Made by a program: the position numbers and the translations under genes. Shown here piece after piece: positions 40,644 to 57,375 of a DNA stretch of 64,000 bases (position 1 is its first letter; the number at the start of each line of letters is the position of its first letter). The notes beneath the pieces were generated by a model, which saw only the letters and a list, made by a program, of their open reading frames with translations, did not search any database and was not told the origin of the DNA. Origin of the DNA: Hydractinia symbiolongicarpus (taxonomy: Eukaryota; Cnidaria; Hydrozoa; Anthoathecata; Hydractiniidae); the NCBI RefSeq assembly GCF_029227915.1, contig NC_079888.1, positions 6,087,001 to 6,151,000 of the forward strand, in the 5' to 3' direction.

Positions 40644-43600
40644 GATGCCAGTCACAGGAAGCAAACAATGAGACGTTCAAAGTTTTGCCACAACTGCAGA
40701 TGTTGGAGCCATCAGAGCTTGCTGTGTATAATCACACTCGCACGTCCACTGCAGAAGTCTGGCCTGATCAAATGAACGTTCGAATATGGGAGAAGCTCTT
40801 TTCAGAATTTGATGACAAACTTTATGTAAGTAAAAAGATCAGAAGAAATTTTAGGTTACTATCAATTTGTGGCCTTATAAAAACTAAAAACTCAGGACTT
40901 CACAATATCACCATTTGAAACAGCAAGATACGTAATAACAAATTCTAAAGAATCAGGAAATATGTTTTCTCGGACCATATTTCAATACATAGTTGCCATG
41001 GCAATTCCCAGATTAAACTTTGAAGCAGGGTAATGACTTCTTAAATTTTCTTTATCGATAATATATTCTATGTGCAAAGTTGCAAAATATGAGGTTCTCT
41101 TGTAATTGATTTTATTCTAACTCTTTTTTCTCATGTTGTTTGCAGCATGCTACCATTTTTTAAATTTCTCTCGCTCGCCTCAGATCTCGTGACCGTGCCT
41201 AGTGTCTTATTTAAAAGATCCCGGCTGCTGACACCAGCTGGCTGCGACCTTCATCGATATATATCATCGCATATTATATTTAATAGTCACAATTGAAGAG
41301 TTTTTTAGTCATTCTATTAAAGAAAGTGAGGTGGTGATGGAATCCCCCCTTCCCTTCACAATATAATTAGGACTCTTTTTCGATCAAACACAGTAGACAA
41401 GAAAGAAGTTGTATGTAAGTGACATATAATTTTTATTTAGATTTCCATTTTTCGTTATGGTGTAACTACGTTATATGAGTATCACTGGTACTTTAAAATG
41501 TATTTGAGTTACCCTGCGAATGCGTTTTATAATGTAAAAATTAAAAACGCCTCCTACGTAGAAACAAAAGAAACACGTGTCTTAAATCTAATATCTAAAG
41601 ATATTAAACGAAAGTCATCGATTGATTTCCTACCAACAGCTGTTTTCACTGCTGCATACATACTCAAAGAAAACTACCCAAAGAATTCTTCTTCTTTTAA
41701 AGTCCACTTTGCTTGGAATGAAAATAACACGTATGTTATCATCACAGGGAGTGAGAATAAAACAAGCATTGTAATTGTCGGGTACTTCAAGTACTGTTCG
41801 TTTAAATTCCATCTGACAAAAAAAGAAATGGTGCATGTCATGCCAAGTAGCTGTCGAAAGGCAGGTAAATATAGTTTCTAAAGATAAAAGTCACTTTGCA
41901 ACCATGTTGCAACCATGGAGACAGGGTTACCATAATTTTCTTATGGTAACCCTGTCTCCTTCCAAAAACAGATTGCTGTTTAACGAGGTTAAAGAGGTAG
42001 CGCAATTTGCTGTAAGGTTTTGTAAATTTAGAAGCGAATCAGAAAGTTGAAAAGAAATATATCCACTTAAGGTTGAACAACCATCTGCACTCAATTTATA
42101 ACTACTCATCGTAGGTCCGTTCTTAATGGTGCAGCCTGAATTTTTGTTTTATAATCACTTGTTTAATGGCTGGTGAAGATTTGTTCTCTTCACCTTCTGT
42201 TTTCTATCCGTAATTGTGTATAACCCTTATTATGACAAAAAATCGGGCAACTGGTGGAGAAATCGTAGTTATGAGGTGGTACTGCAAAAAAAAAAGCAGT
42301 TTATGAAAATCTTCCCCCTCCCTCCCAAAGGAGAGGAATTGATACTTTGTGTTACCAAAGATGGTGGAGCGTTGCGAAAGGATTAAAAGAGCTGGGCTCT
42401 AGTTTTGATTGTAGATATGCTTGATATGTGAGGAATGTGCAACTTTTCGTTTCGACAGTTCAAAGTAAATTCGTGTTCGTATTGAGTCAAAGCATGTCTA
42501 GCAATATATTTATATTATTTATTTATTTATTTTCTTAATTTTAAAATTACTTTTTTTTGGGGGGGAGAGGGTGAGGTTGGGCATTTATCCTCTCCACCTC
42601 CTTTCCTTCCCTCTCCCTGTTTGATACGCACCTGTATAAATTTTTATGACCGATGAGAAAACATTTTCGTTAACAGAGCTTTCAACATCATTTTTTTACT
42701 TTTCTTGTTTAGCACTTTATCCTTATGGTAGAAGACTCTTCAACGACGGCGTCCTGAAACAACCGATTCCACTTTTTTCTTCATATACTGCAAATATAAT
42801 GGTAAATTTCTTCTTCTACATACGTGGTTTTTTTTTTAATCGTCAATTGCCTTTCTGTAAGAAATGGAACCGTCCATAATCCTTGCTAAACAATGTACAG
42901 GTTAACTATGAATCGATGGAATAAAAAAGGGGAAAATTCAGTTTCACTCTCAGGTCTAATAATAATAAACCGTAAATGATTCTTAATGCTGAAATGCGTA
43001 GGTGTGAAATTGTAAATAAAAATACTATCAGAAGTAGAAAAATAAACATGGGGAAAATATAATAAAACATAGACAAATATAGACAGATGTTTCCAACAGT
43101 CAAATTATCATTTAAAGTTCTGTAATGTAAAACATTTAGATAAATAAATTGATGTAATTGATCAAAGCAGAGAAGAATGGCAGATTAAGAAAATATTTGA
43201 AACGCCATGAAAGAAAAAAAACCCAAAATAAACAAGAACAGTCCAACGTTTAGTATAAAAAACTCGACTAACTTTGTAAACAATTTTCTGCATATGTATA
43301 ACAAAAACATAATTTGAAACTTTGAACTACTATTTTCTACTTTTTATGTGCGCATGTTAAGTGCCATGTTCTTTTTGAAAAATATATTTCTTTTTGTCCA
43401 CCGCTAACACGCCGCCATTTTTTAATATTTGTGTCTTGATTATTTGCCTCTTTTGAGTCACATTGGCTTAAATTTAAAAACCACCTTACGTTTTATCCTT
43501 TATACTGCGCGTTCGGCCATGGTAAGCGACAAAATTTTGCTGCCTAAACAAAACACTCGTTATTTGTGTCGCAGTAATGACTGAATAAATATGAAAACAA

Positions 43601-55600: not shown

Positions 55601-57375
55601 GTTTAATTGAAATTCCAGGCAGTCATGTAAAAAAACAAAAATAACAGAAAATTAAAAGACCCGAATCAATTTCCAATTTCCTTTCTTACCGATCTTTTTT
55701 TTCTAAAACCAATACCTTTTCGACCCAAACTTTATTGACGAAAATTTTAGTAGACCCTAGTTATTTGTCAGGCCTTATTTTCGTTACCTATTTTTAAAAT
55801 ATAAAAAGTATAATAAGCAAATGGGAGATGTTACCGAAAAATAAAAATTAATGTTAGTTTAGGAACATTTCAAAACTTCTGGACCTTTATTCTTAAACAA
55901 ATATTAGTTTCTTCTTCATTTTTTCTTCAATGTTTATATGTCTATATTCGTTTGACACTATTAAGATCGATAAAGGATATTGCTAAATCTGTCTGTCTGT
56001 CTGTCTGTCTGTCTGTCTGTCTGTCTGTCTGTCTGTCTGTCTGTCTGTCTGTCTGTCTGTCTGTCTGTCTGTCTGTCTGTCTGTCTGTCTGTCTGTCTGT
56101 CTGTCTGTCTGTCTGTCTGTCTGTCTGTCTGTCTGTCTGTCTGTCTGTCTGTCTGTCTGTCTGTCTGTCTGTCTGTCTGTCTGTCTGTCTGTCTGTCTGT
56201 CTGTCTGTCTGTCTGTCTGTCTGTCTGTCTGTCTGTCTGTCTGTCTGTCTGTCTGTCTGTCTGTCTGTCTGTCTGTCTGTCTGTCTGTCTGTCTGTCTGT
56301 CTGTCTGTCTGTCTGTCTGTCTGTCTGTCTGTCTGTCTGTCTGTCTGTCTGTCTGTCTGTCTGTCTGTCTGTCTGTCTGTCTGTCTGTCTGTCTGTCTGT
56401 CTGTCTGTCTGTCTGTCTGTCTGTCTGTCTGTCTGTCTGTCTGTCTGTCTGTCTGTCTGTCTGTCTGTCTGTCTGTCTGTCTGTCTGTCTGTCTGTCTGT
56501 CTGTCTGTCTGTCTGTCTGTCTGTCTGTCTGTCTGTCTGTCTGTCTGTCTGTCTGTCTGTCTGTCTGTCTGTCTGTCTGTCTGTCTGTCTGTCTGTCTGT
56601 CTGTCTGTCTGTCTGTCTGTCTGTCTGTCTGTCTGTCTGTCTGTCTGTCTGTCTGTCTGTCTGTCTGTCTGTCTGTCTGTCTGTCTGTCTGTCTGTCTGT
56701 CTGTTTTAATTACAAAAGTTGGTTCGACAGAACGGCCCTATGATGCATTTTCTCTATTTACATTGCAAGACGTGGTATTAATTACAGATATATTTCCTCA
56801 TGTAGGAGGAAAGTTTCTTTGGTAGACAGTACATCGACAAAGTTTTAAATCTGCCAGCATCAAGTAAATATCAGAAATCTTCTTTTGCAAGGTTAGTTTC
56901 TTGATGAATTTCTTCTTTTTGTTCTTTGGAGATTTCATTCTTTAAACAAACACGTGGAATTAATTGTCAGCGAATCCGTTGGCATATTGAGAAGAGACCC
57001 ATGGAGTTAAAAAGTGATTATGAGGGTTTAAGACGGTATTAGGTTGTAAAATCGTTGTTTACTTTGTTTCACAACTACTTCACCAGTTTTCAAACATCCT
57101 TCGCCACATGTTAACATCTTTATGTTTTTCACAGGAGCAATGCATACACGTTTCAACAAGAAATAAAGGAAGAAGTAGTGTTACCAGTGGATGATAGTTT
57201 GTCAAATGGTGCGGATACCGATGATGCGTACTTTGCATTTGACATTACTGACGCAGAAATCTTAAACCAGGAAAAGAACACGCACGAAGAGATTGATTTC
57301 AAACAAGAAGATATCCCCAATATAAGCGAAGGAGAATACGTGGGAATAAACAGTCAACAAACAGAAGCAGAATAA
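40644..57375 (+). CDS. Receptor tyrosine kinase with five NIDO-like modules
   Basis: Nineteen exons, in phase; the 5' signal-peptide exon is not found, leaving 1730 visible residues. Exons: 40644-40825, 41441-41864, 42713-42801, 47016-47502, 48061-48182, 48357-48867, 48941-49035, 49516-49978, 50335-50459, 50674-51319, 51409-51699, 51850-52185, 52376-52527, 53597-53843, 54539-54831, 54915-55108, 55300-55534, 56830-56891, 57135-57375. NIDO-like modules span residues 1-202, 202-393, 394-604, 605-790 and 791-1047 ([27 protein letters not shown], SNIGxPGRHVF). A unique module (1048-1144) and an FN3-like domain (1145-1256) follow, then one membrane segment (~1267-1288). The kinase (~1335-1630) has [13 protein letters not shown] (Lys1386), HRDLAARN (Asp1492), DFG, FYKK (Tyr1523) and [10 protein letters not shown], closest to FGFR/VEGFR. 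The 100-residue tail is acidic with a YVGI tyrosine. NIDO occurs in matrix-binding proteins, so a matrix or cell-surface ligand is inferred. Confidence 0.85.
46285..46528 (+). pseudogene. Coiled-coil-like coding fragment (possible transposon relic)
   Basis: An open stretch of ~80 codons with Lys/Glu-rich heptad-like sequence ([20 protein letters not shown]), ending in TAG after FTLEHF. There is no in-frame start. A similar charged segment ([20 protein letters not shown]) lies just upstream (46085-46150) in broken frames. It may be a relic of a retroelement ORF or retrocopy; the source is not recognised. Confidence 0.3.
46671..46742. repeat. 72-bp near-perfect palindrome
   Basis: Two 36-bp arms (TTTGTTGTTGCCGGCAACAA... 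and ...TTGTTACCAGCAACAACAAA) meet at a central GTCGAT with no loop, with about seven mismatches along the stem. About 100 bp downstream (46831-46930) are GCACAGATATGGCGACA and AAAATTAAATTTGTTACCAT blocks, also present at 9260-9330. A dispersed foldback family is likely. Confidence 0.7.
49276..49430. repeat. ~12-bp tandem repeat
   Basis: About twelve copies of TGTACGACTTCT with C/T and A/G variants, in the intron between modules 4a and 4b of the receptor kinase. Confidence 0.9.
51106..51216 (+). repeat. Coding 9-bp repeat (Pro-Tyr-Asn array)
   Basis: Within exon 50674-51319 a nonanucleotide-like repeat (CCATACAAC with T/C/G variants) encodes one PYD and about eleven PYN tripeptides in module 5 of the receptor ectodomain. 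The corresponding position of module 3 has only a short Pro/Ser segment, so the array is a recent insertion or expansion. Confidence 0.95.
53211..53507 (-). mobile_element. tRNA-derived SINE, copy 3
   Basis: Inverted copy of the SINE at 6781-7090. The tail (ATT run in plus orientation) is at the left; ACCCAGGGTAG, CTCAACTAGACAAAGGCC and the tRNA-like head (CGGCCGGGGTTTTATCCCAAG) follow. The B box has decayed. It is intronic, between the membrane-segment exon and the first kinase exon of the receptor. Confidence 0.85.
55989..56704. repeat. 179-unit perfect CTGT microsatellite
   Basis: 716 bp of uninterrupted CTGT in the last long intron of the receptor kinase (55535-56829), between the end of the kinase domain and the C-terminal tail. 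The only upstream hint of a carrier element is TCTATATT at ~55941, which resembles the 5' end of the Helitron-like elements. No hairpin/CTAG end is visible downstream. Confidence 0.98.

Follow-up and report, generated by a model that had tools for sequence, protein, structure and literature searches.

What does a gene encode when its frame seems to run from nidogen-type NIDO domains into a tyrosine kinase? We addressed this question for a 64,000-nucleotide stretch of the Hydractinia symbiolongicarpus genome (the window, C14:6087001-6151000), in which a sequence-only reading had proposed that positions 40644-57375 encode a receptor kinase with five NIDO-like modules, a unique module, an FN3-like domain, a single membrane segment and an FGFR/VEGFR-like kinase. 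Nidogen combines NIDO with G2F, EGF and LDL-receptor-type modules, and NIDO is also found in tectorin, MUC4 and SNED1; to our knowledge, it forms the ectodomain of no characterised receptor kinase. Our analysis indicates that the window gene is likely a type I single-pass receptor tyrosine kinase that belongs to a family of at least 13 loci, the NIDO receptor tyrosine kinases (NIDO-RTKs), and that works by the mechanism proposed below. This looks like a new, uncharacterised family of receptor tyrosine kinases, found here only in Hydractinia.

A single reading frame from NIDO modules to a tyrosine kinase

We listed the open frames over 38-60 kb of the window and inspected all three frames of the stretches that bear exons, leaving out the long intron at 42.8-46.5 kb. 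On the + strand, where all parts of the gene described below lie, 19 hand-placed exons within 40644-57375 join in phase to one frame of 1,731 residues. All 18 introns have GT-AG borders, the phases agree throughout, and the 1,731 codons contain no internal stop. The ends proposed earlier fit this model, as does the single in-phase frame: base 40644 is the first after an AG acceptor, and base 57375 is the last of the stop codon TAA (57373-57375). There is one long intron in the upstream part of the gene (~4.2 kb, 42802-47015). We also noticed a perfect 717-base TCTG repeat (55988-56704) in the intron that separates the kinase exons from those of the tail, and a 43-base satellite of ~38 copies upstream of the gene (36140-37764).

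Profile searches, which the sequence-only reading had proposed for both domains, match the whole conceptual protein with Pfam NIDO PF06119 in four stretches (E 2.2e-53) and with Pfam PK_Tyr_Ser-Thr PF07714 (E 6e-91). The tyrosine kinase domain (53597-55534) is encoded by four exons (53597-53843, 54539-54831, 54915-55108 and 55300-55534), and its catalytic motifs are intact, including the G-loop and APE. In the PDB, its best single-domain match is FGFR2 (E 6.4e-87); a single row ranks higher, that of an EGFR construct, and it adds up two matches. Among NCBIfam models, only bacterial-type kinase models matched this domain, far below their cut-offs. The frame continues in phase into a C-terminal tail with the stop codon (56830-57375; exons 56830-56891 and 57135-57375), which carries tyrosines in NAYTFQ, DAYFAF and EYVGI that may bind SH2 domains.

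We placed the kinase in a tree of 42 kinases, made up of the window and 41 of the 127 fetched proteins. This set does not include P0001 (no kinase), P0003 (truncated kinase), P0128 (found later) or the first 18 rows of the kinase search, most of them long and, judging by their scores, likely to have several kinase domains. One clade (support 100/100, branch length 0.83) unites the window with eight NIDO-RTKs. It falls, together with cnidarian FGFR/VEGFR-like kinases, in a group of 22 rows (97/92) and lies apart from Hydractinia's own immunoglobulin (Ig)-bearing, FGFR2-like P0040. Together with the Pfam and FGFR2 matches, this grouping agrees with the earlier assignment of the kinase as FGFR/VEGFR-like. 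The best identity of the window kinase in the tree is 67%; in the kinase-part search, the nearest protein is 63% identical (among the matches listed, best 120 of 5,379).

Modules of the predicted ectodomain

The NIDO modules have a regular structure, with two exons per module in phases 1-0-1. Scored singly, four of the five lie above the Pfam cut-off (34.7-97.6 bits compared with 25): module 2 (42713-47502; exons 42713-42801 and 47016-47502; E 4e-10), module 3 (48061-48867; exons 48061-48182 and 48357-48867; E 1.4e-15), module 4 (48941-49978; exons 48941-49035 and 49516-49978; E 2.4e-08) and module 5 (50335-51319; exons 50335-50459 and 50674-51319; E 1.2e-27). Module 1 (40644-41864; exons 40644-40825 and 41441-41864) has no Pfam match when scored alone. 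It is matched by a hidden Markov model (HMM) of modules 2-5 only, with an independent E-value of 8.7e-11 and 28 bits in a database of one sequence. An HMM of 39 modules from other proteins, gathered beforehand by an HMM that was first seeded on modules 2-5, also matches it (4.5e-11, 32 bits, 12 sequences). Judged by these family profiles, module 1 is a divergent NIDO, and the count of five modules made earlier stands.

In a quick tree of the modules with 12 open forks, which we used only for this pairing, modules 2 and 4 pair, as do modules 3 and 5 (approximate likelihood-ratio support, SH-aLRT, of 94 and 94), as if a two-module unit had doubled. Modules 1-4 of the window share at best 28-42% identity with any other module. 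A PDB sequence search with most of module 5 gave no match up to E 1. This module also contains a 9-base tandem coding repeat (51116-51216) that encodes an in-frame NPY run of ~30 residues.

Two further modules, each a single exon in phases 1-1, lie between the NIDO array and the membrane segment. We built AlphaFold2 models of both from the window's own exons and family rows. The first (51409-51699) gave a predicted local distance difference test score (pLDDT) of 65.1 and a predicted template modelling score (pTM) of 0.60, and a fold search matched it best to monobodies and fibronectin domains in the PDB (best E 5.8e-4; four at E <= 0.001). The second (51850-52185) gave a pLDDT of 67.6 and a pTM of 0.62; FN3 domains, taken from receptors and adhesion proteins, make up most of its top matches, of which the best has E 1.2e-3 and none reaches E <= 0.001. 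Pfam has no match for either. With modest confidence, we therefore read both modules as FN3-like folds. Because its model and fold search point to FN3, the first, earlier taken to be a unique module, is probably not unique in fold and is instead another FN3-like module; for the second, the original FN3-like label is retained on its fold matches, at the same modest confidence and with no Pfam domain behind it.

At 52376-52527 lies a predicted membrane segment followed by a basic juxtamembrane stretch. Its 19-mer starting at residue 1268 has a mean hydropathy of 2.69, the highest in the protein, where the second-ranked value is 1.51. N-glycosylation sequons number 21 before this segment and three after it. 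By hydropathy, this would be a single-pass segment between ectodomain and kinase, as had been proposed. In a tblastn search, the membrane exon finds a counterpart (E < 0.01) at five of the 12 other kinase-bearing loci. Overall, the architecture of five NIDO modules, two beta modules, one membrane segment and an FGFR/VEGFR-like kinase is as the sequence-only reading described it. Two corrections are that the gene belongs to a family and that its 5' end is missing from 40644-57375.

NIDO and kinase are linked at 13 loci and in related proteins

The same frame could result if a NIDO matrix or membrane gene simply adjoined a kinase gene and their in-phase join arose by chance. This possibility draws on the ~4.2 kb intron, on the fact that no transcript of the window locus was seen, and on NIDO clusters elsewhere in the genome that lie away from any match to this kinase exon. 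We searched the 480.9 Mb H. symbiolongicarpus assembly for NIDO and for the kinase exon 54539-54831, finding at least 125 NIDO matches (150 of 158 candidates scored) and 26 matches to the kinase exon. Thirteen of these, the window included, are close, with at least 60% identity over nearly the whole exon; the other 13 are weaker or shorter. We then counted linked NIDO matches, both upstream on the same strand and on the opposite strand, within 40 kb. All 13 close matches have a same-strand NIDO upstream, the nearest 3.3-8.2 kb away; none of the other 13 has a same-strand NIDO upstream or an opposite-strand NIDO within this distance. A random place in the genome has a same-strand NIDO upstream with probability 0.002, although the 13 loci are paralogues and so are not independent draws. 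These data show that the linkage of NIDO and kinase has been kept through old duplications.

In 10-kb stretches at the 12 other loci, the matchable exons occur in the same order as in the window, though not every exon was matched. The last NIDO exon was found at 11 of the 12; at the C15 locus, the nearest NIDO lies outside the stretch. Eight of the 13 loci match named proteins in pieces of 90-100% identity, and identity of 92-96% with P0128 makes C2:18.78 a sister copy of the P0128 locus. No fetched protein matched the loci at C14:14.60, C2:17.95 and C4:20.29 Mb at 90%. For most exons of the nearest FGFR2-like copy in the assembly the match is 93-98%; our guess for the shortfall from 100% is overrun at the exon ends.

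Protein searches also recovered relatives in which both parts are joined. The ectodomain search returned 13 proteins, the family-alignment search 12, and from the kinase-part search we took the best 120 of 5,379. NIDO together with PF07714 occurs in LOC130654766, LOC130646248, LOC130628517 and LOC130629817 from the ectodomain search, in LOC130630320, LOC130625556 and LOC130625370 among the matches listed for the kinase search, and in LOC130629879 from the family-alignment search, all from H. symbiolongicarpus. Two unnamed 'lgn' proteins, P0005 and P0006, have the same combination, and LOC130629862 (P0001) has NIDO without a kinase. All nine named H. symbiolongicarpus proteins are labelled 'uncharacterized protein'. 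The number of NIDO matches per family protein ranges from two (P0032) to 12, one of them weak (P0128). Among the matches listed, NIDO and kinase were joined in no other named organism, in searches that need shared short words, restrict length and can miss distant cases; to this extent, the attribution to a non-bilaterian lineage holds.

One relative bears directly on continuity. P0006 is a single 1,269-residue frame that runs from NIDO to kinase in a 4,135-base contig, and it maps in order, from NIDO to tail, over C2:18,380,377-18,400,376 (64-93% identity per piece). Since the contig is spread over ~20 kb of genome, it must represent either spliced RNA or a retrocopy. P0006 supports one gene for the family, though not directly for the window locus.

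Taken together, the collinearity at 13 of 13 loci and the relatives that join both parts (eight named and two unnamed proteins, P0006 spanning both from one 4.1 kb contig) led us to rule out separate neighbouring genes, an arrangement that we now regard as highly improbable. The sequence-only reading had named transcripts assigning ectodomain and kinase to different genes as the result that would count against it. At the level of the family, the 13 loci, the eight joined proteins and P0006 answer this point in favour of one gene; a transcript of the window locus itself was not among the evidence.

Several loci have features of their own. Judged by the catalytic exon, the window gene has its closest relative at C14:14.59-14.60 Mb (89%), a locus with an FGFR-like YYKK activation loop. 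C2:18.78-18.81 Mb (- strand) and C2:18.90-18.93 Mb (+ strand) hold two NIDO-RTK loci that resemble each other, face opposite ways and have 11 NIDO matches apiece, which an inverted duplication could explain; our guess is that P0001 is a truncated model of the first. The NIDO clusters that have no kinase-exon match nearby lie at C10:15.008-15.024, C11:26.377-26.383 and C3:11.10-11.11 Mb and could possibly encode partners or decoys; the analysis covered 10-kb stretches at C10 and C11 and the NIDO loci at C3. A short kinase-exon match at C8:26936863-26936979 (69% over 39 residues), with no NIDO nearby, is a possible remnant.

The kinase is conserved in most family members

Even within a real family, the window copy might be an unexpressed or decaying paralogue. 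The lack of a near-identical protein in this annotated genome, among candidates limited to ~952-3029 residues, would fit this, as would the perfect TCTG repeat in one intron. Such decay is hard to reconcile with the uninterrupted 1,731 codons, the 18 GT-AG introns and the retention of all catalytic motifs. We also compared substitutions between copies. Compared with C14:14.60 Mb over 321 kinase codons, the window differs at a proportion of 0.75 for synonymous sites and 0.18 for non-synonymous sites, a ratio (pN/pS) of 0.24. Against five other paralogues (161 codons), pN/pS is 0.20-0.28, so that values against all six paralogues fall in this range, though these are pairwise ratios and part of the constraint may act on the other copies. 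We think there is little chance that the window copy is decaying or unexpressed, and continue to read it as a probable receptor kinase gene.

Synonymous sites are near saturation between the paralogous kinase exons; by this measure of their sequences, the NIDO-RTK copies are old and their kinases have been kept. The Asn of the HRD motif and the DFG residues are present at 12 of the 13 loci. The remaining locus, C15:8.72 Mb (LOC130628517), has Thr for the catalytic Asn (HRDLAART) and DLG for DFG, and probably encodes a pseudokinase receptor. At C4:20.29 Mb, HRDLAARN and DFG are kept, with ALE for APE and loss of the activation-loop tyrosine.

A candidate first exon

Since the exon at 40644 starts in phase 1, the exon with the start codon must lie upstream. 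We ranked candidates in 28000-40640 by hydrophobicity and donor score. The first of five mechanical candidates, 39022-39091 (+ strand), would supply a start codon and a signal peptide, MFPWNIVKFTFEIFCSVSAALLV; it has a hydrophobic leader and a good donor, TTG|GTAAGT, and joins the exon at 40644 in phase 1. Hydrophobic N-terminal leaders are also seen by eye in the relatives P0002, P0003, P0004 and P0007. The candidate at 39022-39091 may be the signal-peptide exon of the window gene.

Proposed mechanism and relation to known receptors

The architecture suggests how such a receptor might work. Its five NIDO modules, carried as a chain by the two FN3-like modules, would most likely bind an extended ligand in the matrix or on a neighbouring cell. 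Ligand binding would bring receptors together, allowing the FGFR-like kinases to phosphorylate each other and the tail tyrosines, and the phosphorylated tail tyrosines would then recruit SH2 adaptors.

Several points weigh against this account. The class of ligand, and with it the sensing of matrix or cell surface, is the weakest step, deduced from anatomy. No transcript of the gene was seen at the window locus, where the continuity of ectodomain and kinase is argued from relatives, and no near-identical annotated protein was found among candidates of ~952-3029 residues; the window gene may therefore lack an annotation, be annotated in pieces or have weak expression. The exon borders are hand-placed, and the first exon is guesswork. 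The FN3 assignments depend on models with pLDDT values of 65-68, and Pfam finds no FN3 match. Collinearity at 13 paralogous loci does not amount to 13 independent events. Finally, signalling by a member's own catalysis cannot hold for the whole family, since catalytic residues are missing from LOC130628517.

A different role is conceivable, in which the family is a set for adhesion or for self/non-self recognition, its varied NIDO arrays binding, where cells or colonies touch, to one another or to NIDO proteins that lack a kinase. The number of loci, at least 13, and the range of NIDO matches per protein are consistent with such a set. Its ectodomains are also more diverged than the kinases (at best 28-42% for modules 1-4 of the window compared with 67% for the kinase), and the kinase-less NIDO clusters could be the partners. 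Hydractinia colonies, moreover, are known for allorecognition. The conserved kinase exons and near-saturated synonymous sites point instead to old genes, as opposed to a set in recent expansion, and in receptors ectodomains commonly diverge fast. We consider the recognition role rather unlikely and prefer a receptor for matrix or neighbouring-cell ligands. Going further, and only as a tentative speculation, shuffled NIDO arrays of varying length may sense what the neighbouring cells or matrix are, or what state they are in, with the kinase-less NIDO proteins and the degenerate member serving as ligands, decoys or co-receptors, in a tyrosine-kinase recognition system unlike those of bilaterians.

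The NIDO-RTKs share features with several known systems. Like FGFR, the window protein has a kinase that matches FGFR2, but it lacks an Ig domain (Pfam up to E 1) and has a NIDO and FN3-like ectodomain instead. Its kinase nests, as noted, with those of cnidarian Ig-bearing FGFR/VEGFR-like receptors, in a clade separate from the Ig-bearing P0040. It shares PF06119 with nidogens, the only named non-Hydractinia matches of the ectodomain search, but differs in its five tandem NIDO modules, membrane segment and kinase, NIDO and kinase being the only families that pass the cut-off. The nidogen matches carry further domains, PF07474 and PF07645 among them, which we take to be G2F and EGF-like. The eight LOC proteins resemble the window gene in combining NIDO with PF07714 and in the locus order of their matchable exons; they differ in NIDO number, and LOC130654766 lacks the second FN3-like module, as seen in its alignment and sequence.

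The Venus kinase receptors (PMC3703292, PMC4026697) are likewise invertebrate receptor kinases with an unusual ectodomain on a conventional kinase. Theirs is a Venus flytrap ectodomain with an insulin-receptor-like kinase, unlike the NIDO/FN3-like ectodomain and FGFR-like kinase of the window; Pfam finds no Venus flytrap family in the window protein.

Exon units with symmetric phases are of the kind moved by exon shuffling. The phases found here suggest that nidogen-type modules, as symmetric phase 1-1 exon units, were placed before an FGFR-like kinase and multiplied afterwards. Ectodomain shuffling of receptor kinases is stressed in a study of the holozoan tyrosine kinome (PMC8662651), and the terms nido and nidogen are absent from its main text. 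A sponge genome paper points out that proteins other than nidogen also have the NIDO domain (PMC10280926), and a cnidarian pattern-receptor survey uses NIDO as a mark of extracellular location (PMC8260672); the passages of PMC12549020 contain nothing on NIDO. No NIDO receptor kinase appeared among the papers listed by literature searches, which did not cover most subscription journals.

The NIDO-RTKs thus add a receptor tyrosine kinase family with a new type of ectodomain, multiplied in Hydractinia. This colonial hydroid serves in the laboratory as a model of stem cells, colony growth and allorecognition, which makes experiments with gene deletions and ligands feasible.

Neighbouring features

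Two other coding regions were seen in the window, both on the - strand: trypsin-type serine protease frames at 10602-11985 (Pfam E 4e-46 and 7.8e-16) and a GNAT acetyltransferase open frame at 34778-35287 (E 2e-18).

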